Source of the DNA: Lachnospiraceae bacterium V9D3004
GTDB lineage: Bacteria; Bacillota; Clostridia; Lachnospirales; Lachnospiraceae
Direction of reading: 5' to 3'
DNA length: 64,000 nucleotides
Assembly: GCA_000621985.1 (NCBI GenBank)
Contig: JHWW01000002.1
Span: 62,001 to 126,000, forward strand
Shown here: positions 11,863 through 21,741 of the stretch, piece by piece
Numbering within the stretch: position 1 is the stretch's first letter
How the letters are laid out: the number at the start of each line of letters is the position of its first letter
The notes under the pieces: model-generated
The model's input: only the letters and a program-made list of their open reading frames with translations
Databases searched by the model: none
Told to the model about the DNA's origin: nothing
Made by a program: the position numbers and the translations under genes

Positions 11863-14022
11863 ATGAAAAATAATCAAAACAAATATTCAAAATGGCATAT
11901 TATAATATTTGTATTTATAGTATTATTTTTTGTCGGTATAATCATAATTTATTACCTGATGTTGTACTCAACGACAAGGGATAATATCATGAACAGGGGC
12001 AGGATCAATGCTACAAGTTCTTCGAAGCAGATTGATAACTACCTGTCTGCAAGTGTGGATGCGCTTAAACTTACTGCGTATTCACTTGATAATATGATCA
12101 GGGATAACCGGTCTCAGCATGAGATACGAGATTTTCTGATGAATCAGACAGTTGCGGTCAAGAATACGTTGTTGGGGGATACTACCGGATTATATGGGTA
12201 CATTAACGGTGAATTCATGGATGGTTCGGGTTGGGAGCCCGAAGATGATTATATGGCAACGGAGAGACCATGGTATGTTGATGCAAGAGCCAACAGCGGA
12301 AGTATAACGTTAGTTGATCCCTATCTTGATCTGTATACCGGAGATGTAATGATATCAATCGTGAAGACGTTGTGTGATGCCAAGAGCGTAGTGGCTATAG
12401 ATGTATCCATGCAAAATCTTCAACAGATAACCGAAGACCATGCAAAACATGATGCATCGTATTCGGAGATCATAATAAGCGACAGAGGACAGATCATAGC
12501 AAGTTCGGATAAGCAGGGAATTGGAGAAGATCTTGCAAAAGAACGCGGTTCGCTTGGAGAAGAGATATCAAAAGAGATCAATTCATCGGGTGAGAATAGT
12601 TTTTATCTCAAACACGATAGTACGGATTATATAATATATGTCATGCCGCTTGGAAACGGATGGACATGTATATCGGTATCAGATGCTACCGGAGAATATT
12701 CAAAGTTAAAAATTCCGCTTATAACTGTCATAATATCGGCAGCGTTATTAATAGCAGTTCTTGTATTCTTCATGATTACGTCTGACAGAAAGAGTAACGA
12801 AGCAAGGAAGATGTCAATGAGATCGGAACGTGCTATTGCGGCCAATGAGGCAAAATCGGCATTTTTGTCGAATATGTCCCATGAGATAAGAACACCTATC
12901 AATTCAATACTCGGAATGAATGAGATGATACTTCGCGAATGTGAAGATGATGATATAATTAAGTATTCACAGAATATTGAATCATCAGGTGCCACATTGC
13001 TCAGTCTTGTTAATGATATACTTGATTTTTCGAAGATTGAAGCAGGGAAGATGGATATCATTCCGGTAGATTATAACATCGGTTCGCTGATCAATGATCT
13101 GATCAATATGGTACATACAAGAGCCGATGAGAAAGGCTTGAAGTTCAAAGCCGATATTGATGAGAATATTCCGGCAGGACTTCATGGTGATGAGATAAGG
13201 ATCAAACAGGTTATAACCAATCTTCTCACCAATGCCGTAAAATATACCAACAAAGGCAAAGTAAAGCTGAGTATAGGATATGAGGACATTGAGAATGATC
13301 CCGATTCGATACTGATCAAAGTGGCAGTTAAGGATACGGGAATAGGAATAAAACCAGAAGATATTGAAAAGCTTTTCATAAAATTCGAGCGTATAGAAGA
13401 AGAAAGAAACAGAAATATAGAAGGAACAGGTCTGGGACTTAATATAGCAAGCATGCTTCTCGGAATGATGGGAAGTGAGCTTAAGGTTGAGAGTGTATAC
13501 GGTGAAGGATCGATGTTTTATTTCACCATGGTTCAGAAGGTGGTTGACAGAACTCCGGTCGGAGACTTCGGATCATCATTCTCCGGTGCGTCAAGACATA
13601 ATGCGAAAAATGAAGCAAAGTTCATCGCTCCTTCGGCCAATATTCTTGTTGTTGACGATGCAAAGATGAATCTGTTCGTATTCAAGAGCCTGTTAAAGAG
13701 AACGAAAGTACAGATAGACACGGCTAACTCCGGTGATATAGGAATAACCATGGCAGGAAAGAAAAAGTATGATATTATATTCCTTGATTATCTGATGCCC
13801 GAAAAGAACGGAATAGAAACACTGAAAGAGATGCGTGAAGACGAAAAAGGAATGAATCATGATACACCTGTGATATGTCTTACTGCCAATGCTATATCGG
13901 GAGCAAGAGAGACATATATTAATGCCGGTTTTGACAATTATCTATCAAAGCCAATAGATTCCGTAAGGCTTGAGGAGATGATGATAGAATATATGCCGGC
14001 TGAAAAAGTCAGTATGCTGTAA
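11863..14022 (+). CDS. Hybrid histidine kinase with extracellular Cache-type sensor
   Basis: 719 residues. A membrane helix at about 10-33, a PDC/Cache-like extracellular sensor (about 35-285, with WYVDARANSGSITLVDPYLD), a second helix (about 286-306), then HisKA with FLSNMSHEIRTPINS (H340). The HATPase domain has NLLTNAVKYT, DTGIGI and GTGLGL, and the C-terminal receiver has Asp at 642 (IIFLDYLMPEKNG). All catalytic motifs are intact, so autophosphorylation and intramolecular transfer are expected; there is no Hpt domain here. The start at 11863 lacks a strong ribosome binding site. It is the first gene of a five-gene operon in which the third kinase supplies an Hpt domain. Confidence 0.88.
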   Translation: MKNNQNKYSKWHIIIFVFIVLFFVGIIIIYYLMLYSTTRDNIMNRGRINATSSSKQIDNYLSASVDALKLTAYSLDNMIRDNRSQHEIRDFLMNQTVAVKNTLLGDTTGLYGYINGEFMDGSGWEPEDDYMATERPWYVDARANSGSITLVDPYLDLYTGDVMISIVKTLCDAKSVVAIDVSMQNLQQITEDHAKHDASYSEIIISDRGQIIASSDKQGIGEDLAKERGSLGEEISKEINSSGENSFYLKHDSTDYIIYVMPLGNGWTCISVSDATGEYSKLKIPLITVIISAALLIAVLVFFMITSDRKSNEARKMSMRSERAIAANEAKSAFLSNMSHEIRTPINSILGMNEMILRECEDDDIIKYSQNIESSGATLLSLVNDILDFSKIEAGKMDIIPVDYNIGSLINDLINMVHTRADEKGLKFKADIDENIPAGLHGDEIRIKQVITNLLTNAVKYTNKGKVKLSIGYEDIENDPDSILIKVAVKDTGIGIKPEDIEKLFIKFERIEEERNRNIEGTGLGLNIASMLLGMMGSELKVESVYGEGSMFYFTMVQKVVDRTPVGDFGSSFSGASRHNAKNEAKFIAPSANILVVDDAKMNLFVFKSLLKRTKVQIDTANSGDIGITMAGKKKYDIIFLDYLMPEKNGIETLKEMREDEKGMNHDTPVICLTANAISGARETYINAGFDNYLSKPIDSVRLEEMMIEYMPAEKVSML

Positions 14023-14098: not shown

Positions 14099-14908
14099 AT
14101 GAGAAAAATTATCTTGAACAGATTGATAGCATCGTTAATAATGATAGCGCCTGTCGTAATGTGTACAGCGTGTGCGGGAGGTTCATCAGGCGACGAGTCT
14201 CTTGATAAGGTATTAGAGGCCAAAAAACTGGTTATAGGACTGGATGATAATTTTCCACCGATGGGATATGTTGACGAATCCGGAGAGGTAGTAGGTTTTG
14301 ATATCGATGTAGCTAAAGAAACATGCAAAAGACTCGGAATAGAGCTTGTTCCAAAAACGATCGAATGGGAAGATAAAGATGATCTGCTTAATAAAGGAGA
14401 GATTGACTGTATCTGGAACGGAATGTCGGTTAACGATGAAAGAAGAGAGACAATGAGTCTTTCGGAACCCTATATGAAAAACAATCTGGTGTTCGTTGTG
14501 TCAAAAAACAGCGGAATAAAATCGTCAGATGAACTTAAGGGAAAAAAGATCGCGCTTCAGGACGGAACGACCGGTGCTGATGAATTAATGAAATCGGATA
14601 TGAATTCCGATGTTGAGACCGTAATGTTTAATGACAGCGTGAAAATGCTTGAATATCTGGAAGAAGGAAAAGTGGATGCAGTACTTACCGATTCCGTATT
14701 TGTATATTATTATATCGCAGAAAACAATAAAGAATTTTATGTACTTCCCAATGAATTAAAAACAGAAAAATTTACGATCGGCTTCAGGAAAAATGATGAA
14801 GCTCTGCGCGATAAGATCCAGGAAGTGTTACATGAAATGAAAGTTGACGGCACACTTGCTGATATTTCCACCAAATGGTTTGAGACCGATATTACAACAG
14901 TGAGATAA
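14099..14908 (+). CDS. Family 3 solute-binding lipoprotein (amino-acid type)
   Basis: 269 residues. A hydrophobic signal ends at a lipobox-like CTAC with Cys25. The SBP_bac_3 fold follows: LVIGLDDNFPPMGYVDESGE, GFDIDVAKETCKRLG, DCIWNGMSVNDERRE, and the closing GTLADISTKWF. Family members bind polar amino acids or opines. AGGAAGGG precedes the ATG at 14099. No permease or ATPase gene is near; it is flanked on both sides by hybrid kinases, and the next gene starts four bases after its stop. A sensory role, presenting ligand to a kinase, is more likely than uptake, though it could also serve a distant transporter. Confidence 0.88.
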   Translation: MRKIILNRLIASLIMIAPVVMCTACAGGSSGDESLDKVLEAKKLVIGLDDNFPPMGYVDESGEVVGFDIDVAKETCKRLGIELVPKTIEWEDKDDLLNKGEIDCIWNGMSVNDERRETMSLSEPYMKNNLVFVVSKNSGIKSSDELKGKKIALQDGTTGADELMKSDMNSDVETVMFNDSVKMLEYLEEGKVDAVLTDSVFVYYYIAENNKEFYVLPNELKTEKFTIGFRKNDEALRDKIQEVLHEMKVDGTLADISTKWFETDITTVR

Positions 14909-14912
14909 ATAT

Positions 14913-16967
14913 ATGGAAGAACGAACTAATAATCATATTACCGTAGTTTCCGTCCTGACACTAGGATGTGTGGGACTCATAATAAAAAGCATTATGGAGG
15001 GTTGGGAATTCTGGATGCCTCCACTTCTTATTGCCGCTTTGGTGATAATGTGGGTTATTCATATTACCGAATATCCCGGAGAAAGATTCAGAGAGAATTA
15101 TTATCTTTCATATGCCATGCTTGGAGCCTTGTATCATGGTGTTCATGAGACAAGTTTTTTTGATATTGCTCTGGTTGCAATATTTATAATCATTGTATTT
15201 TCTGTTATAGATCGCATTAATTTTCTTGGTTTTATTCTTACGGAATATTTTGTGCTTATGATAGTACAGATAGTCCTTGCTTCGTATTCGGGAAATGTAG
15301 AGTTCACCTTCAATGACAGATCGGGGATCGCTCTTCAGTCCGTTGTTGTTCTGGTCGCATTTTACATATGCAGAAAAAATATGTTCCTTAGGACGGAGAT
15401 GACCGGAGAACTTGTTGATATGGAAGAAAGGATCAACAATGCCAGAAGTGATATGGAGGATTTCCTTGTTAATATATCTCATGAGCTCAGGACGCCTGTT
15501 AATGTTGTAAACGGAATATCGACTCTTATGCTTAAAGACGAGGAAACCGAAGATGTAACTGCAATAAGGAATGCGGGTATAAGACTGTCACGTGAGATAG
15601 AAAATATACAGGATTATACGGAAATCAAAAGAGGTACGGTTGTTATCGAAGAAGAACAGTATGCGATCACTTCTCTCATAAATGATTTGCTGTACAGTTT
15701 CAGGATTCAGGAAAAAAAAGACCGGCTTGAATTTGTTGTCGACCTTGATCCTCTCGTACCTATGATGATGAAAGGTGATATTAAAAAACTTCATAAGATA
15801 TTGAGGCATCTGATCGATAATTCGATGAATTTTACAAATGAAGGCGGAGTGTATGTCAGGATCGCCTCACTTAAGAGGCCTTACGGTGTGAATCTTGAGA
15901 TAGAAGTCACAGACACCGGTATAGGGATGTCAAGAAAGGATATCGCAAATGCTTCGAAAGGCCTGTATCAGGCTAACGGAAAACGTAATCGTAATATCGG
16001 TGGAATAGGTCTCGGATTAAGTATCGTGTACGGCTTTGTTCATAAGATGAAAGGTTTTGTAGCCGTTGACAGTATAAAAGGTTACGGAACAACCGTTCGT
16101 ATAACCGTTCCGCAGGAAGTATCGGATCCGAGTCCATGCTTAAGGATCGATAAGAATCTTGCAAAGAATATCATATTCCACGTGACACCGGAAAAATATA
16201 AGGTGCCGAGAGTAAGGGAATTCTATCAGGATATGGCTGTAAGCATTGCTTCTGGATTGAAACTTAATCTGTATTCCGCAGTTACTACATCGGATGTTGA
16301 TAAGATTCTTGACAGGATGGAAGTATCACATATATTCACGGGAAGCGAAGAATATGAGAGTGATCCGGAATACTATGATGAGCTTAGCAGGAAAGGTATA
16401 GTTGTTGTCGTATCCACAACAACAGGGTTTGTCAGGACAAACTCAAAAGGTGTGATCTTTATTCCAAAGCCGCTCTACGGATTCCCAATAACCAAGATAT
16501 TAAATGAAGGAACCGGAGCGAAGAACTTTGAGATATTCGAAGAGAAAAATGTACCGGTGCTTGACGGGTTAAGAGCGCTTATTGTTGACGATGAACCGAT
16601 GAATCTTGTGGTGGCCGCAGGATTATTTAAGAATTATAATATGATAACGGATACTGCCGGAAGCGGACAGGAATCACTGGAAAAATACAGCAACAATGAT
16701 TACGACATTATATTCATGGATCATATGATGCCTGAAATGGACGGTATCGAAGCCATGAAGAGGTTAAAGAGGATCGCTCTTGACAGCGGCAGAAGAGTTA
16801 AGATAGTAGCGCTTACGGCAAACGCGGTAAGCGGTGCAAAACAGATGTTTTTGTCGGAAGGATTTGACGGATTCATAGGAAAACCGATAGATATCGGAGA
16901 ATTTGAGAAAGTAATGTGTAATGTGCTTCCACATACGGTAAAAGAATATGCGGGAGGTGATCATTGA
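14913..16967 (+). CDS. Integral-membrane hybrid histidine kinase with pseudo-receiver
   Basis: 684 residues. About six membrane helices fill residues 8-155 with no large external loop. A short coiled segment leads to HisKA with FLVNISHELRTPVNV (H190), then HATPase motifs (IDNSMNFT, DTGIGM, GGIGLGLSI). Residues about 395-520 look like a receiver fold that has lost its phosphorylation site (no DxxMP motif, but it keeps a KPL segment near the end). A genuine receiver follows with D603 (IIFMDHMMPEMDG). The membrane part resembles no sensor I can name. It starts four bases after the binding-protein gene and its stop overlaps the next ATG (TGATG), so the genes are coupled. Confidence 0.85.
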   Translation: MEERTNNHITVVSVLTLGCVGLIIKSIMEGWEFWMPPLLIAALVIMWVIHITEYPGERFRENYYLSYAMLGALYHGVHETSFFDIALVAIFIIIVFSVIDRINFLGFILTEYFVLMIVQIVLASYSGNVEFTFNDRSGIALQSVVVLVAFYICRKNMFLRTEMTGELVDMEERINNARSDMEDFLVNISHELRTPVNVVNGISTLMLKDEETEDVTAIRNAGIRLSREIENIQDYTEIKRGTVVIEEEQYAITSLINDLLYSFRIQEKKDRLEFVVDLDPLVPMMMKGDIKKLHKILRHLIDNSMNFTNEGGVYVRIASLKRPYGVNLEIEVTDTGIGMSRKDIANASKGLYQANGKRNRNIGGIGLGLSIVYGFVHKMKGFVAVDSIKGYGTTVRITVPQEVSDPSPCLRIDKNLAKNIIFHVTPEKYKVPRVREFYQDMAVSIASGLKLNLYSAVTTSDVDKILDRMEVSHIFTGSEEYESDPEYYDELSRKGIVVVVSTTTGFVRTNSKGVIFIPKPLYGFPITKILNEGTGAKNFEIFEEKNVPVLDGLRALIVDDEPMNLVVAAGLFKNYNMITDTAGSGQESLEKYSNNDYDIIFMDHMMPEMDGIEAMKRLKRIALDSGRRVKIVALTANAVSGAKQMFLSEGFDGFIGKPIDIGEFEKVMCNVLPHTVKEYAGGDH

Positions 16968-19900
16968 TGTTACTGTTTAAAGGCTTGTTCATAAAAGGAG
17001 ACAAAAGTGAGATATCGTTTGAGCAGCGTATAGTGTCATTCATCGTATTTTCGGGTGAGATATCACTGCTTATTGCGATGCTCTTTGATATCGCTATAGA
17101 TGAGAATATTATCGAGATCATTACTCTTGCGATGCTTCTTGCGGCACTTCCCATATCGGCATATATATGTCTGAGGTTAAATAAAGCGGCCGCATGTGTA
17201 AAACTTCAGATATTTTTCCTGGTATTTCTTGTTATGCCGGTAACGTTTTTCTTCGGAGGAGGTCCGAGGGGAGGCGGAATAATATGGACGGCGATAACGT
17301 ATATGTATATCGGCGTAGTGTTAACCGGGGCATGGAAGACAGCCATGACCGCATCGCTCACGCTTGTGGTCATATCCGAATACGCCATGTATTATTTTGA
17401 TCCGAATCTGATATATAATCACAACGATATCGAATTCATCATAGATACACTGGTGTCAATCATTCTTGTAGGCGGCATGATCTATTCAATGGTATGGTTT
17501 CAGGGTATCATGTACAGAGAAGAAAGGTTGCGTGCCCAGGCCGAGACAAGGCGTGCCGAGGAGCTAAACCGCACACAGAATCAGTTTTTTTCGAGTATGA
17601 GTCATGAGATAAGAACCCCCATCAATTCAATACTCGGTCTTAATGAGATCATAATGAGGCAGGAAGATGCTTCCGAAGAGATAAAAAAAGATGCGGCCAA
17701 TATTCAGGGAGCGGGTAAGATGCTTCTTGCTCTTGTTAATGATATCCTTGATATAAGTAAGATAGAAGCCGGAAAGATGGATATAGTTCCCGTCAATTAC
17801 AGTGTCGGTTCACTTGTGTCGGATATTGTTAATATGGTATGGCTTCGCGCCGAACAAAAAGGTCTGAAAGTTGAAGTTGACATAGATCCTTCAATACCGT
17901 CCGAATTGTACGGAGATGAGATGCGTATCAAACAGATACTCATCAACCTTCTTAATAATGCGATAAAATATACCAATGAAGGGACAGTGAGTCTCCATAT
18001 AGAGAAGGAGGCTGAAGAAGATTATAAAGTTCAGCTTATAATATCTGTATCGGATACCGGAATAGGGATCAGGCAGGATGCTCTTCCTTATCTGTTTGAT
18101 ACTTTCAGGAGAGTGGATGAAGAGAGAAACAGATATATCGAGGGAACCGGGCTTGGTCTGTCAATTGTAAAGCAGTTAGTCGAACTTATGGACGGAAGTA
18201 TCGATGTAAACAGTGTATTCGGTCAGGGATCGACATTTACGGTCACGTTATGGCAGGCTGTTACCAATAATAATCCTCTTGGTGCGGTTGAGCTTTCGGG
18301 TATCGGTGATCCGTCATATGAGCAGAGATATAAGAGCGGATTCAGTGCTCCCGACGCAAGAATTCTCATTGTAGATGACAGTCCGATCAATCTTGAGGTG
18401 GAAAAAAGACTTCTTGACGATACTGACATGTTAGTTGATACGGCATCCGGAGGGGTTAAGGCTCTTGAAATGACGTTAAGATCCCGTTACGATCTGATAT
18501 TCATGGATCATTTGATGCCTGATATGGACGGATTGGAATGCCTGTCGCGTATAAGAAAACAGAGCGGAGGACTTAATAACAGTGCTCCGGTGATCGTGCT
18601 TACAGCCAATGCCGGAGGAGAAAACAGAAGTCTTTACAACAAAAGCGGATTTGACGGATATCTTGTGAAGCCGGTATCAGGAAGGCAGCTTGAGGAGATA
18701 ATCATAAAACATCTTCCTAAAGAAAAGGTAATTTTGTCCAAAGCCGCCGAATTCTCCGGTATTGAGATGAATACTGCAAGCGGTTACAGAAGAAAGGTTC
18801 CGATACTCATTACAACCAGCAGTATGAGTGACCTCCCTCTTTCAATGATCAGAGAACTGAATATTGATATTATTCATTTCAATATACATATGGGTGACCA
18901 CACTTTCTGGGATAATCTTGAAGCGGATGCGGACGGCCTGATAGATTATATGAAAGAAGATGATGTGGAATTCTTCTCAGAGCCCCCCGTTGTCGAGGAC
19001 TATGAGAGATTCTTTGCAAGTAAACTTAAGAAAACCCACCGTATCATTCATATTGCGATCACTTCAAGCATGAGTGTGGAATATGAAAGGGCACTTGCGG
19101 CAGCCAAGAATTTTGATAACGTAACGATCGTTAATTCGGAGAAACTTTCAAGTGCTACCGGGCTTTTAGTTCTTGCGGCTTATCAGATGGCAAAACAGAA
19201 TGAACCGGTTGAAAAGATCGTGGAAGAACTTGAGCTTTTAAAGAAAAGGATCAATTGCAGTTTCGTGATCGCGGGAACGGATTTTATGATGAGAAGAGGA
19301 TTCATAGGTCAAAAGGTTCATATGATCCTAAAATCCCTCAATATAAGGCCGTGTATACAGGTAAAGAACAATAAATACGGAGTCGGTGGTTTATTTTTCG
19401 GAAACCGTAAGAAATGCTTCGAAAAATATATTGCATACGCTCTTTCGAAAAAGGCATCTCCGGATCTTGATATTCTGTTCGTGACATATGTAGATGTAAC
19501 TGTAGAAGAACTTGCATGGATCGAGAAGGAGATCAAAAAAAGATTCGACTTCAAGCATATTGTATTCCAGAAGGCATCGGCAGGAATATCACTTAACAGC
19601 GGGCCGGGAACATTCGGACTTCTGTATATGGATAAGGGAAAGAATTCATATAATCTCTCATCTCTTCTTACAAAAGAAATTGAACCTCATGACAATGAAA
19701 ATGATGAGGTTCGGGATCTCACAGATGACGGTTATCCTGTTATGAGACAGGCTCATTACGGGGCGGCACGATCCGAAGATATGGATATGGGATACATACC
19801 GGGAATAAGGGAAACAGGTTCGAATCGACGCCAAGCTTTAAGAGAGCTGCCATGGTATAAAAAAATAGATGGTATAGATGGTGATACGGCTATTGGTAAC

Positions 19901-20461
19901 AATGCTTCCGAAGATGCTCTTAATATGGTTCTTAAGATGTTTTACGAGACCATTACCGAAAGAGAAAAAGAGCTTAATGATTACTATGAAGCAAAAGACT
20001 GGGGCAGATATACGGTAAAGGTACATGCACTTAAGAGCGCTGCAAAACTGATCGGGGCAATGAAGTTATCAGAAGAGGCTGCCGGGCTTGAAAAAGCAGG
20101 CAAGGTTGAAGATGTTGATTATATCCGAAGCAATCATCATAGCACAATGAAAGAATACAGACGATATCTTGATATTCTCGGAGAATTGTACGATAATACT
20201 GATGGGAACAGAGAAGTACCGGGTGATGATACCGATGTTAAGATCGCAGACATGGATCTTTTGAGATATGTCTATGACAGGATCCATCGTGGCGCAGGAG
20301 AACTCGATTCAGACAGGATAGAAGAAGCATTTCGTGTACTTGATGGTTACATGGTACCTGAAGAAGAAATTGAATTTTTTGAATCACTAAAGAAAATGCA
20401 TGATAATTTTGATTATGACGGTCTGTATTCCGCTATAGAAAACAGAGGAGGTGTGGGATGA
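16967..20461 (+). CDS. Hybrid histidine kinase with DegV-like domain and Hpt
   Basis: 1164 residues. Five to six membrane helices (about 18-185), HisKA with FFSSMSHEIRTPINS (H213), HATPase (NLLNNAIKYT, DTGIGI, GTGLGL), and a receiver with D514 (LIFMDHLMPDMDG). Residues about 605-890 then match the DegV (EDD) fold of fatty-acid-binding proteins: TTSSMSDLPLSMIRELNID, an ITSSMSVEYERAL segment in the place of SSxLSGTY, ATGLLVLAAYQMAK, RRGFIGQ in the place of GGRIG, LNIRPCIQVK, and NSGPGTFGLLYM. An Hpt domain follows with VKVHALKSAAKLIGA (H1020), plus an acidic helical tail. So the phosphorelay order is complete in one chain, with a predicted lipid-binding domain between receiver and Hpt. The ATG at 16967 has GGGAGGTG upstream and overlaps the previous stop by one base. 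Confidence 0.87.
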   Translation: MLLFKGLFIKGDKSEISFEQRIVSFIVFSGEISLLIAMLFDIAIDENIIEIITLAMLLAALPISAYICLRLNKAAACVKLQIFFLVFLVMPVTFFFGGGPRGGGIIWTAITYMYIGVVLTGAWKTAMTASLTLVVISEYAMYYFDPNLIYNHNDIEFIIDTLVSIILVGGMIYSMVWFQGIMYREERLRAQAETRRAEELNRTQNQFFSSMSHEIRTPINSILGLNEIIMRQEDASEEIKKDAANIQGAGKMLLALVNDILDISKIEAGKMDIVPVNYSVGSLVSDIVNMVWLRAEQKGLKVEVDIDPSIPSELYGDEMRIKQILINLLNNAIKYTNEGTVSLHIEKEAEEDYKVQLIISVSDTGIGIRQDALPYLFDTFRRVDEERNRYIEGTGLGLSIVKQLVELMDGSIDVNSVFGQGSTFTVTLWQAVTNNNPLGAVELSGIGDPSYEQRYKSGFSAPDARILIVDDSPINLEVEKRLLDDTDMLVDTASGGVKALEMTLRSRYDLIFMDHLMPDMDGLECLSRIRKQSGGLNNSAPVIVLTANAGGENRSLYNKSGFDGYLVKPVSGRQLEEIIIKHLPKEKVILSKAAEFSGIEMNTASGYRRKVPILITTSSMSDLPLSMIRELNIDIIHFNIHMGDHTFWDNLEADADGLIDYMKEDDVEFFSEPPVVEDYERFFASKLKKTHRIIHIAITSSMSVEYERALAAAKNFDNVTIVNSEKLSSATGLLVLAAYQMAKQNEPVEKIVEELELLKKRINCSFVIAGTDFMMRRGFIGQKVHMILKSLNIRPCIQVKNNKYGVGGLFFGNRKKCFEKYIAYALSKKASPDLDILFVTYVDVTVEELAWIEKEIKKRFDFKHIVFQKASAGISLNSGPGTFGLLYMDKGKNSYNLSSLLTKEIEPHDNENDEVRDLTDDGYPVMRQAHYGAARSEDMDMGYIPGIRETGSNRRQALRELPWYKKIDGIDGDTAIGNNASEDALNMVLKMFYETITEREKELNDYYEAKDWGRYTVKVHALKSAAKLIGAMKLSEEAAGLEKAGKVEDVDYIRSNHHSTMKEYRRYLDILGELYDNTDGNREVPGDDTDVKIADMDLLRYVYDRIHRGAGELDSDRIEEAFRVLDGYMVPEEEIEFFESLKKMHDNFDYDGLYSAIENRGGVG

Positions 20462-21741
20462 TGGCAGGAGTCTCAAAGAATTCCGGAGACAAGTCATCGG
20501 ATTTTAAAAAAGCAACAATGTTCATTGTTGCCGGTGTGGTAATATCGCTTGTGTATGTCGTGATATTTGCATATACAATGACAATGATAAGCGCAAAAAT
20601 GACGTACGATACAACGCTTGCAGTTAAGAAGGATATGTTAAGTGAGAATGTTGGCAATATGATCATATACCTTGATAATGCCGCCGGAGAATACAAAGAG
20701 GAACATCCGTCCGCCTCAAAGAAGGAAGTTGAGGATCATTTATACAATATCGCCCACGAAAGGATGCATTCCGAGAAATATCTCGACGGTTCTTATATGT
20801 GGGTTGAAAAAATTCTCAATTACGATGGCGGAGATAATTATGCAATACGTCTTATTCACCCGAATCTAAAAGATACCGAAGGAGATTACCTTACTACCAA
20901 CGAAGTTAATCCAATGGGTATAAAGGCATATGAAGAAGAACTTGAAGGTATAAAAAAAGACGGAAGCCTATATCTCACATATGAATTCAAGAAACTTAAT
21001 TCGGATGACGTGACGAAAAAGGTCACATTTTCAAAATTATATAAAGATTATGACTGGATAATCTGCATGGGCGTTAATATTGACGAGCTTGAACACTATC
21101 AGGATCAGGCTGAAGAGAATATGCAGTTATATCAGATAATCGTTCTTTCAGCAATTGTAGCTACATGGATAATTCTTCTGTTTGTTATGTTCCATGGGTA
21201 CAGAAAATCCACGATTGAAGCATACGAGAAACGAAACAGAGAGCTTCACGCCAAAATTAACACGGATAAGTTAACAGGTGCGGGATCAAGAGAATTCGGA
21301 GATGCGATTCTTAATAATGAACTTGAGGAATTCCGCGCCGGCAAAAAGAATACTCTTGTTCTTATGATGGATGTGGATTATTTTAAGCAGTTCAATGATA
21401 ATTACGGACATGATGTAGGAGATATAGTATTAAAATTATTTGTTGCCGCGGTAAAAGAATGTATAACGGATAATGATGATGTTATCAGGTGGGGCGGTGA
21501 TGAATTCGTTGTGATCCTTCAGAATATCACGAGGGAAGCTCTGCCTGCGGTGGGCGACAAACTTCTTAACGCTATCAGAAATATTACAATAGAAGAGATG
21601 GATAAAAAACATCCTGTTACGACTTCAATGGGCTTTGCATATTTTGAAAAAGGCGACAGAGATGTTAAGGAAGTACTTAACAGAGCGGACGAAGCGCTCT
21701 ATAGAGCAAAGGAAGCAGGAAGAGATAACTGGAAAGTATGA
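20458..21741 (+). CDS. Diguanylate cyclase with Cache sensor
   Basis: 427 residues. Membrane helix at about 20-42, an extracellular Cache-type sensor (about 45-220, with GSYMWVEKILNYDGG and YDWIICMGVNIDELE), a second helix (about 222-244), then a GGDEF domain. The domain has an intact RWGGDEF (346-350), DVDYFKQFNDNYGHDVGD and the NRADEALYRAKEAGRD end, so it should make c-di-GMP from two GTP. GAGGAGGTG precedes two adjacent ATG codons (20458 and 20461); the first overlaps the kinase stop by four bases. It is the last gene of the five-gene operon and its likely output. It has no receiver, so a link to the kinases would be through a shared ligand or shared control. Confidence 0.9.
   Translation: MMAGVSKNSGDKSSDFKKATMFIVAGVVISLVYVVIFAYTMTMISAKMTYDTTLAVKKDMLSENVGNMIIYLDNAAGEYKEEHPSASKKEVEDHLYNIAHERMHSEKYLDGSYMWVEKILNYDGGDNYAIRLIHPNLKDTEGDYLTTNEVNPMGIKAYEEELEGIKKDGSLYLTYEFKKLNSDDVTKKVTFSKLYKDYDWIICMGVNIDELEHYQDQAEENMQLYQIIVLSAIVATWIILLFVMFHGYRKSTIEAYEKRNRELHAKINTDKLTGAGSREFGDAILNNELEEFRAGKKNTLVLMMDVDYFKQFNDNYGHDVGDIVLKLFVAAVKECITDNDDVIRWGGDEFVVILQNITREALPAVGDKLLNAIRNITIEEMDKKHPVTTSMGFAYFEKGDRDVKEVLNRADEALYRAKEAGRDNWKV

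Follow-up and report, generated by a model that had tools for sequence, protein, structure and literature searches.

FakB proteins, such as FakB1 and FakB2 of Staphylococcus aureus, belong to the DegV family and bind long-chain fatty acids. In PMC8892158, two FakB1 arginines are described as completely conserved in FakB: Arg173, which is required for catalysis, and Arg205, which binds FakA and orients the protein at the membrane. According to PMC10138225, deletion of a fourth FakB of Streptococcus pyogenes leaves phospholipid composition unchanged, a precedent for DegV proteins that operate off the usual pathway. SaeRS is a two-component system regulated by fatty acids, which fatty acid kinase influences indirectly, via a decrease in the fatty acid pool (PMC5539427), and LadS/GacS of Pseudomonas is an example of networks of several hybrid kinases (PMC4866733). 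Here, we focus on a gene pair in 64,000 nucleotides of Lachnospiraceae bacterium V9D3004 (NCBI GenBank assembly GCA_000621985.1, contig JHWW01000002.1, positions 62,001 to 126,000, forward strand; hereafter, the window). Specifically, a hybrid histidine kinase that contains a DegV domain, the DegV kinase, directly follows the gene for a second hybrid kinase, its partner.

We favor, with somewhat better than even confidence, the view that the DegV domain descends from FakB and serves as a receptor module, which passes a lipid-like signal to a phosphorelay that is divided over two chains, possesses one histidine phosphotransfer (Hpt) domain, and is often encoded beside genes for cyclic di-GMP (c-di-GMP) regulators. 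The evidence, read from sequence, lies in the architecture and fold of the protein, residue changes in the DegV domain, the pairing of the two kinases, the single Hpt per pair, the existence of split forms, and the regulator genes next door.

The DegV kinase and its family

A first-pass annotation of the window had placed a DegV domain between the receiver (REC) and the Hpt of a hybrid kinase. The open reading frame and its coordinates are correct, Pfam bears out the domain order, and alignment locates D514 and H1020 as claimed. The HisKA, HATPase, and REC domains all score above their Pfam cut-offs, as befits a hybrid histidine kinase. The Hpt falls just below its cut-off (24.5 versus 24.6 bits); we accept it because the H1020 position is His in all 26 Hpt-bearing members of the family in the alignment and because the stretch is modeled as helices with high confidence. 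Among the 99 non-redundant fused members that we define below, the alignment places H213 in 95 (four gaps) and D514 in 97 (one gap, one Asn).

The DegV assignment is secure. Two of the checks that had been proposed for it, a profile search and a structure prediction, were run: the domain scores 144.1 bits against PF02645 (cut-off 27, E value 7e-42) and 147.6 bits against NCBIfam TIGR00762 (cut-off 99.7), and its AlphaFold model displays the FakB fold with a predicted local distance difference test (pLDDT) value of 94.6 and a predicted template modeling (pTM) score of 0.91. In Foldseek, the top 10 matches are all DegV/FakB structures, with template modeling (TM) scores of 0.79 to 0.87, and ranks 1 to 45 are all DegV/FakB chains (TM by query, 0.75 to 0.87). 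The best structural matches are 1pzx, 2dt8, and 4x9x (FakB2), and FakB1 structures are also among the matches. The domain is a true member of the DegV superfamily with the DegV/FakB fold.

The fusion recurs. We count eight DegV matches in the source genome (G000, 3.42 Mb), half of them in stand-alone proteins and half in frames of 893 to 1170 residues. Among 10 genomes of the genus, including this one, the long type occurs in this genome only. Among the matches listed, a DegV match lies in a frame of at least 700 residues in at least 69 of 397 genomes of the family Lachnospiraceae, and in a long frame in at least nine of 391 genomes of the class. When two short patterns were run against 84,980 species genomes, 288 relatives emerged, not all of them necessarily fused, and the best 80 of these 288 were retrieved for analysis. 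The records with relatives include Lachnospiraceae, Butyrivibrio, Acetatifactor, Oscillospiraceae, Oscillibacter, Treponema, and Spirochaetaceae. This survey covered 118 loci (L numbers), of which 114 have a fused frame, some of them duplicates. HisKA, HATPase, REC, and DegV, with or without Hpt, are present in 110 of these 114; the other four lack at least one of the four matches, some of them at contig ends. The non-redundant set of 99 consists of the window and loci from L039 to L141. L119, L129, L088, and L006 were dropped as duplicates of L040, L039, L085, and the window, respectively, and two fused loci stand outside the set, L044 (missed in gene calling) and L048 (truncated ahead of its HATPase).

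A tree that includes six outsiders, for which the program warns of long branches, sets the 99 fused DegVs apart by a branch with 100/99 support. Of these members, 73 stop at DegV and 26 bear an Hpt. The survey suggested by the first-pass annotation reveals a recurrent fusion in a conserved gene pair, with an Hpt on the DegV chain in 26 of the 99. The Hpt-bearing rows form a clade of 24 (100/99), adjoined by L134 (84/86), with L137 elsewhere. In L067, L087, and L113 (Treponema and Spirochaetaceae), the fusion involves longer kinases of 1006 to 1012 residues; these rows are nested among clostridial rows, which suggests horizontal transfer or mis-binned contigs.

The N-terminal hydrophobic region of the window protein has similar copies at the genome's three other DegV kinases. 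A fifth match to this region, at G000:C1:9681-10175, belongs to a 778-residue frame outside the genome's DegV matches.

Ligand-site residues of the fused DegV domains

To gauge the resemblance to FakB, we compared the 99 fused DegVs with 25 stand-alone DegVs (four from the same genome, one from L096, and 20 from the genus) at Arg173 and Arg205 and at the carboxylate network of Thr62, Ser95, and His270 (FakB1 numbering). Arg205 is retained in one of 99 fused versus all 25 stand-alone domains. Its column is uncertain by one position: a smaller alignment (113 fused rows with repeats, five stand-alone) gives Gly and the larger alignment gives hydrophobic residues, and Arg205 is lost from the fused DegVs under both. 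Arg173 is retained in 43 of 99 fused domains (3 of the 26 in the Hpt group, 40 of the 73 others) versus 25 of 25. At the His270 position, 98 of 99 fused domains have Asn, and 24 of 25 stand-alone domains have His (one gap). The hydroxyl positions of the head-group site are better kept, with Ser/Thr at the Thr62 position in 93 and at the Ser95 position in 78 of the 99. The window DegV follows suit: Phe occupies both arginine positions, and the FakB carboxylate network is incomplete, with Ser671 and Ser703 kept and Asn877 in place of His. These replacements, and the second hybrid kinase directly upstream, had escaped the first-pass annotation.

The genome contains one FakA-type match, and its stand-alone DegVs retain both arginines. 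By the residues it carries, the fused DegV is a pseudo-FakB, predicted not to serve as a FakA substrate carrier; the earlier proposal that the domain acts as FakB does finds no support in these counts. We read the ligand site as retained but probably re-tuned, with FakA no longer served. Given that the hydroxyl residues are kept and that the new Asn is near-invariant, ligand sensing by the fused DegV remains plausible as a prediction. The change from His270 to Asn would suit a ligand that does not require the full carboxylate network, and our guess is that it is perhaps a neutral acyl compound. Fifteen positions discriminate fused from stand-alone domains, defined as having a residue found in 75% of the former and at most 15% of the latter: FakB1 positions 14, 32, 35, 38, 62, 70, 73, 75, 81, 108, 123, 215, 264, 270, and 276.

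The partner kinase, split forms, and gene neighborhood

In the window, the final base of the partner gene is the first base of the DegV kinase ATG. The partner has no Hpt and the DegV kinase has one, so that this pair of chains holds exactly one. The same is true of nearly all pairs. Across the 99 members, the Hpt lies on the DegV chain only in 24, on the partner only in 59, on neither in one (L087), and on both in none, with the partner uncalled in 15. Exactly one Hpt is therefore present in 83 of the 84 pairs with a directly upstream partner called. A smaller first count of 66 pairs gave 7 on the DegV chain, 58 on the partner, one on neither, and none on both. All four pairs of the source genome obey the rule, two in each arrangement. 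In the proteins inspected, partners lacking an Hpt stop shortly past REC and DegV kinases lacking one stop shortly past DegV. At L087, a kinase with an Hpt lies on the opposite strand beside the pair.

The 15 uncalled cases are accounted for as follows. Seven have no upstream gene, or none beyond a contig end (L042, L049, L057, L067, L078, L079, L125); in two, a contig end truncates an upstream piece with an Hpt (L047, L054); and in one, L138, the N-terminus of the partner is on the DegV chain itself. A six-frame search of the remainder revealed an intact upstream partner with an Hpt, in a frame of 805 to 824 residues missed in gene calling, in L084, L103, and L106, and partner pieces with an Hpt in broken frames in L052 and L064. 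These five recovered partners agree with the one-Hpt pattern.

Partner and DegV kinase also travel together across genomes. The N-terminal 170 residues of the partner have exactly four matches in the source genome, at the four DegV kinases. A profile made from an alignment of 12 partner N-termini has 92 matches in 65 of the 397 family genomes. Taking DegV frames among the matches listed, 60 of these genomes have both a partner and a long DegV frame and 323 have neither. A DegV match lies downstream on the same strand within 6.5 kb of 80 of the 92 partner matches, and 77 of 97 long DegV frames have a partner upstream, with several of the exceptions consisting of two genes on different contigs. 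The N-terminal region of the partner is hydrophobic, with no Pfam match above cut-off in the partners scanned. Residues ~403-555 of the window partner, the interval of ~150 residues between HATPase and REC, also lack a Pfam match; the interval is present in longer partners too and is possibly a pseudo-receiver.

We considered whether the Hpt was physically transferred from partner to DegV kinase, and think it less likely. In a FastTree tree of 108 Hpt domains, a weak tree given so short a domain, 25 of 26 DegV-chain Hpts are nearest to a third kind of hybrid kinase. Because the nearest Hpts are not from partners, independent gain and loss more likely explains the distribution.

Split and rearranged forms shed light on how the pair could work. 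Among 20 short-frame DegVs hand-picked, non-exhaustively, from the matches listed, five have Asn at position 270 and lack Arg205. One of them, L185, is truncated at a contig end; neither the split count nor the tree includes it. In each of the remaining four (L188, L189, L191, L192), a DegV of 283 to 302 residues is encoded by a gene of its own that starts where a histidine kinase-REC-Hpt gene ends, and the stretches read contain no second kinase. For each of the four upstream kinases, the six best BLAST matches within our own set are partners of DegV kinases (24 of 24 rows), and the fit to the partner N-terminus profile is poor (best E value 0.013). Of the His-type control DegVs (14 retrieved, with L204 lacking a DegV frame), none of the 13 readable cases has a kinase directly upstream, and L193 also has none. 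In a FastTree tree rooted on FakB1, the four split DegVs form a clade (0.951) that is sister to the 99 fused domains, with joint support of 0.947. This arrangement suggests that DegV may originally have been a separate subunit for a partner-type kinase.

Six additional loci, L208 to L213, were chosen because DegV seemed, by its coordinates, to begin immediately behind the partner or within the partner's frame. Two of them, L208 and L209, combine a partner that lacks an Hpt (685 and 559 residues) with a gene, directly behind it, for a DegV-Hpt protein that has neither kinase nor receiver. Were such a pair functional, phosphate would have to cross from one chain to the other. Given that a partner-type kinase is followed by an unfused DegV in four cases and by a DegV-Hpt protein without kinase in two, a relay between chains is the likely arrangement. 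Three second kinases have DegV at the N-terminus (L137, L210, L211; Table 1). In the L137 protein, of 1578 residues, DegV is followed by ~470 residues without a Pfam match and then by a dCache domain. L138 and L212 unite partner N-terminus and DegV on one chain, with no HisKA or REC match; downstream of both are genes of 459 and 553/554 residues. L213 possesses a partner with an Hpt and a broken DegV kinase.

Regulator genes adjoin many modules. In 66 pairs, the gene ahead of the partner encodes REC-HD-GYP in 19, a single REC in 19, REC-GGDEF in four, and REC with another domain in two; the remainder consists of another kinase (2), another gene (11), a gene on the opposite strand (6), and a contig end (3). 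Pfam confirmed these classes on one REC-HD-GYP and one single REC protein. In the window, the Cache-GGDEF neighbor is a candidate c-di-GMP output or a parallel sensor. Solute-binding proteins related to the one in the window adjoin the module in L140, L046, L048, L059, and L064. Because the partner N-terminus is hydrophobic and lacks a Pfam match, it is plausible that the partner receives a membrane or nutrient signal and that DegV provides the cytosolic input.

Other neighbors are more varied. Genes of 507 to 508 residues recur behind Hpt-bearing DegV kinases; the one downstream of the L141 module encodes a sodium:alanine symporter family protein. A DUF6976 protein, identified by Pfam in L124 alone (L124:6015-7001, minus strand), lies behind an Hpt-bearing DegV kinase, and genes of similar length (321 to 339 residues) recur behind others. 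In the source genome, a sensor kinase that combines an iron-hydrogenase-like domain with 4Fe-4S motifs (L141:12782-15937, minus strand) adjoins a DegV pair. No fatty acid synthesis gene was recognized among the Pfam-scanned neighbors, which are a sample and not a survey, and comparison with PHROGs added nothing specific.

Table 1. Features of the window and of rearranged relatives (window positions, unless a locus precedes them)
Feature	Position	Strand	Basis
Neighboring hybrid kinase, HisKA-HATPase-REC	11863..14022	+	Pfam
SBP_bac_3 solute-binding protein, 4 bases ahead of partner	14099..14908	+	Pfam
Partner hybrid kinase, 684 residues, HisKA-HATPase-(~150 residues)-REC, no Hpt	14913..16967	+	Pfam
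DegV kinase, 1164 residues, one open frame, transmembrane-HisKA-HATPase-REC-DegV-Hpt	16967..20461	+	Pfam
N-terminal hydrophobic region, residues 1-190	16967..17536	+	
HisKA, residues 204-269, phosphoacceptor H213	17576..17773	+	Pfam, alignment
HATPase_c, residues 316-429	17912..18253	+	Pfam
REC, residues 466-579, D514	18362..18703	+	Pfam, alignment
DegV domain, residues 613-888	18803..19630	+	Pfam, NCBIfam, AlphaFold, Foldseek
S671, FakB1 Thr62 position (head-group hydroxyl)	18977..18979	+	alignment
S703, FakB1 Ser95 position (head-group hydroxyl)	19073..19075	+	alignment
F779, FakB1 Arg173 position (catalytic Arg gone)	19301..19303	+	alignment
F811, FakB1 Arg205 position (FakA/membrane docking Arg gone)	19397..19399	+	alignment, uncertain by one column
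N877, FakB1 His270 position, directly before GPGTFGL	19595..19597	+	alignment
Linker, residues 903-959, disordered by prediction (pLDDT < 50)	19673..19843	+	structure model
Hpt, residues 988-1046, H1020	19928..20104	+	Pfam, alignment, model
Cache-GGDEF protein, 4-base overlap with DegV kinase stop	20458..21741	+	Pfam
DegV-Hpt protein, 485 residues, no kinase or receiver	L208:3240-4694	-	
DegV-Hpt protein, 414 residues, no kinase or receiver	L209:3390-4631	-	
Second kinase with N-terminal DegV, Hpt-less partner ahead	L137:4122-8855	-	
Second kinase with N-terminal DegV, Hpt-less partner ahead	L210:2450-5329	-	
Second kinase with N-terminal DegV, Hpt-less partner ahead; cut by contig end	L211:5431-8304	+	
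Partner N-terminus, HATPase match, and DegV on one chain, 870 residues	L138:6225-8834	+	
Partner N-terminus, HATPase match, and DegV on one chain, 862 residues	L212:3290-5875	+	

Proposed mechanism, alternatives, and known systems

We propose that the DegV domain is a FakB-derived ligand-binding module that was co-opted for signaling, having, to judge by sequence, lost FakA docking and most catalytic residues while preserving a ligand site in altered form. The partner and the DegV chain, encoded back to back, probably form one complex that shares a single Hpt carried by either chain. The notion is that a ligand bound to DegV, most probably lipid-like, would govern phosphorylation of the receivers of the complex and, in turn, of the Hpt, with the ligand shifting the balance of kinase versus phosphatase activity. 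The Hpt would then hand phosphate to a separate receiver protein, often the REC-HD-GYP, single REC, or REC-GGDEF protein encoded next door. We infer the physical complex, the class of ligand, the direction of control, and the output from these patterns together. A broader scenario, to which we give slightly less than even weight, is that a FakB paralog left the fatty acid kinase to become a dedicated receptor for a lipid-like signal, initially a subunit of its own encoded behind a hybrid kinase and only afterwards joined to a second kinase or an Hpt, and that it now couples lipid state to c-di-GMP, via two chains sharing one Hpt, widely in clostridia and in some spirochaetes.

Several observations weigh against this proposal. 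Loss of His270, together with that of Arg173 in the Hpt group, could by these substitutions abolish fatty acid binding; the Ser95 position is not Ser/Thr in 21 of 99 fused domains; and only two of the 15 discriminating positions are named head-group residues. The changes may partly reflect a docking surface rather than the ligand site. The Hpt pattern stems from few evolutionary events, and the 83 of 84 pairs are not independent. Moreover, both chains of the Treponema locus L087 lack an Hpt, among the matches listed a long DegV frame stands without a partner match in nine genomes and a partner match without a long DegV frame in five (three of these five with a high-scoring DegV match in a shorter frame), and no receiver gene lies ahead of the partner in 22 of 66 pairs. 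Finally, in a model of REC-DegV-Hpt, the modules are well folded and their mutual arrangement is undefined (pTM 0.48).

Some of these same observations would be expected were DegV a scaffold that links the two chains (or brings in a separate receiver) by docking or dimerization and has no regulatory ligand. The missing FakB-specific Arg and His, the 13 of 15 group-specific positions outside the named head-group residues, the variable Ser95 position, the strict pairing, and the split forms as separate subunits all accord with a scaffold, which we nonetheless regard as unlikely: a near-invariant Asn877 (98 of 99) and Ser/Thr at the Thr62 position in 93 of 99 are what selection on a site would produce. 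The first-pass annotation had instead envisioned gating within one chain, in which DegV would bind a long-chain fatty acid as FakB does and control transfer from D514 to H1020. The position of DegV between REC and Hpt in the window protein, the mostly retained head-group Ser/Thr, and fatty-acid-binding DegVs among the nearest solved structures are compatible with this idea, and there is a precedent in the inhibition by fatty acids of the S. aureus histidine kinase system SaeRS (PMC5539427). However, same-chain gating cannot be the general mechanism because the DegV chain lacks an Hpt in 73 of 99 members, and the two DegV-Hpt relatives have neither kinase nor receiver. With His270 and Arg205 lost and a 57-residue linker, disordered by prediction, between DegV and Hpt, we consider it quite unlikely.

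It is also conceivable that DegV is the output, with phosphorylation of the receiver altering lipid loading or release. Its C-terminal location behind REC in 73 of 99 members is that of an output domain. Yet loss of Arg205 removes the known routes of lipid delivery, to FakA and the membrane (PMC8892158), the single Hpt of each pair and the receiver genes alongside hint at an end point of the relay other than DegV, and some relatives have DegV at the N-terminus or no receiver; we judge an output role very improbable. To a chance fusion or a decaying relic we give almost no credence. The patchy distribution, with the fusion confined to one of 10 genomes of the genus, and broken copies such as that in L213 might hint at one, but 99 non-redundant members in one clade, a conserved signature and neighborhood, and a high-confidence fold speak otherwise. 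We thus retain the receptor module in a two-chain relay as our preferred reading.

If that reading is true, DegV proteins gain a role outside phospholipid synthesis, many Lachnospiraceae and Oscillospiraceae possess a candidate cytosolic lipid receptor, and a natural phosphorelay is divided over two chains with the Hpt possible on either. The split forms, a kinase with a free DegV or DegV-Hpt protein, make the questions of ligand and phosphate transfer tractable with small soluble proteins. The author of the first-pass annotation knew of no described fusion, and, among the matches listed, we likewise found no description of a DegV-kinase fusion in the open-access literature, a search that mostly did not cover subscription papers and preprints. 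In the available parts of PMC3091722, PMC9912610, and PMC3533761, DegV occurs only in gene lists or as a single gene. The DegV-bearing kinase pair may represent a route, so far undescribed, by which a lipid-like signal enters a phosphorelay.

Compared with FakB and other DegV proteins (PF02645, TIGR00762), the fused domains share the fold, the domain length, the Ser/Thr head-group positions, and the GPGT motif. They differ in residing on a hybrid kinase, or being encoded behind one, and in having Asn for His270, no Arg205, and, in the Hpt group, mostly no Arg173. Among hybrid kinases, the best NCBIfam matches of the DegV kinase are of the TorS/BarA/EvgS type (transmembrane-HisKA-HATPase-REC-Hpt), far below their cut-offs. 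The kinase core and receiver are alike, as is, in 26 of 99 members, an Hpt with catalytic residues; unlike those kinases, DegV kinases have DegV past REC, and there is one Hpt per two adjacent chains, not one in each. In LadS/GacS, more than one hybrid kinase reportedly feeds one relay, whereas the DegV pair consists of adjacent genes, exactly one of which has an Hpt in 83 of 84 pairs. With SaeRS, whose kinase is said to have no DegV domain, the pair would share a fatty acid or lipid input to a two-component system, proposed here from sequence.

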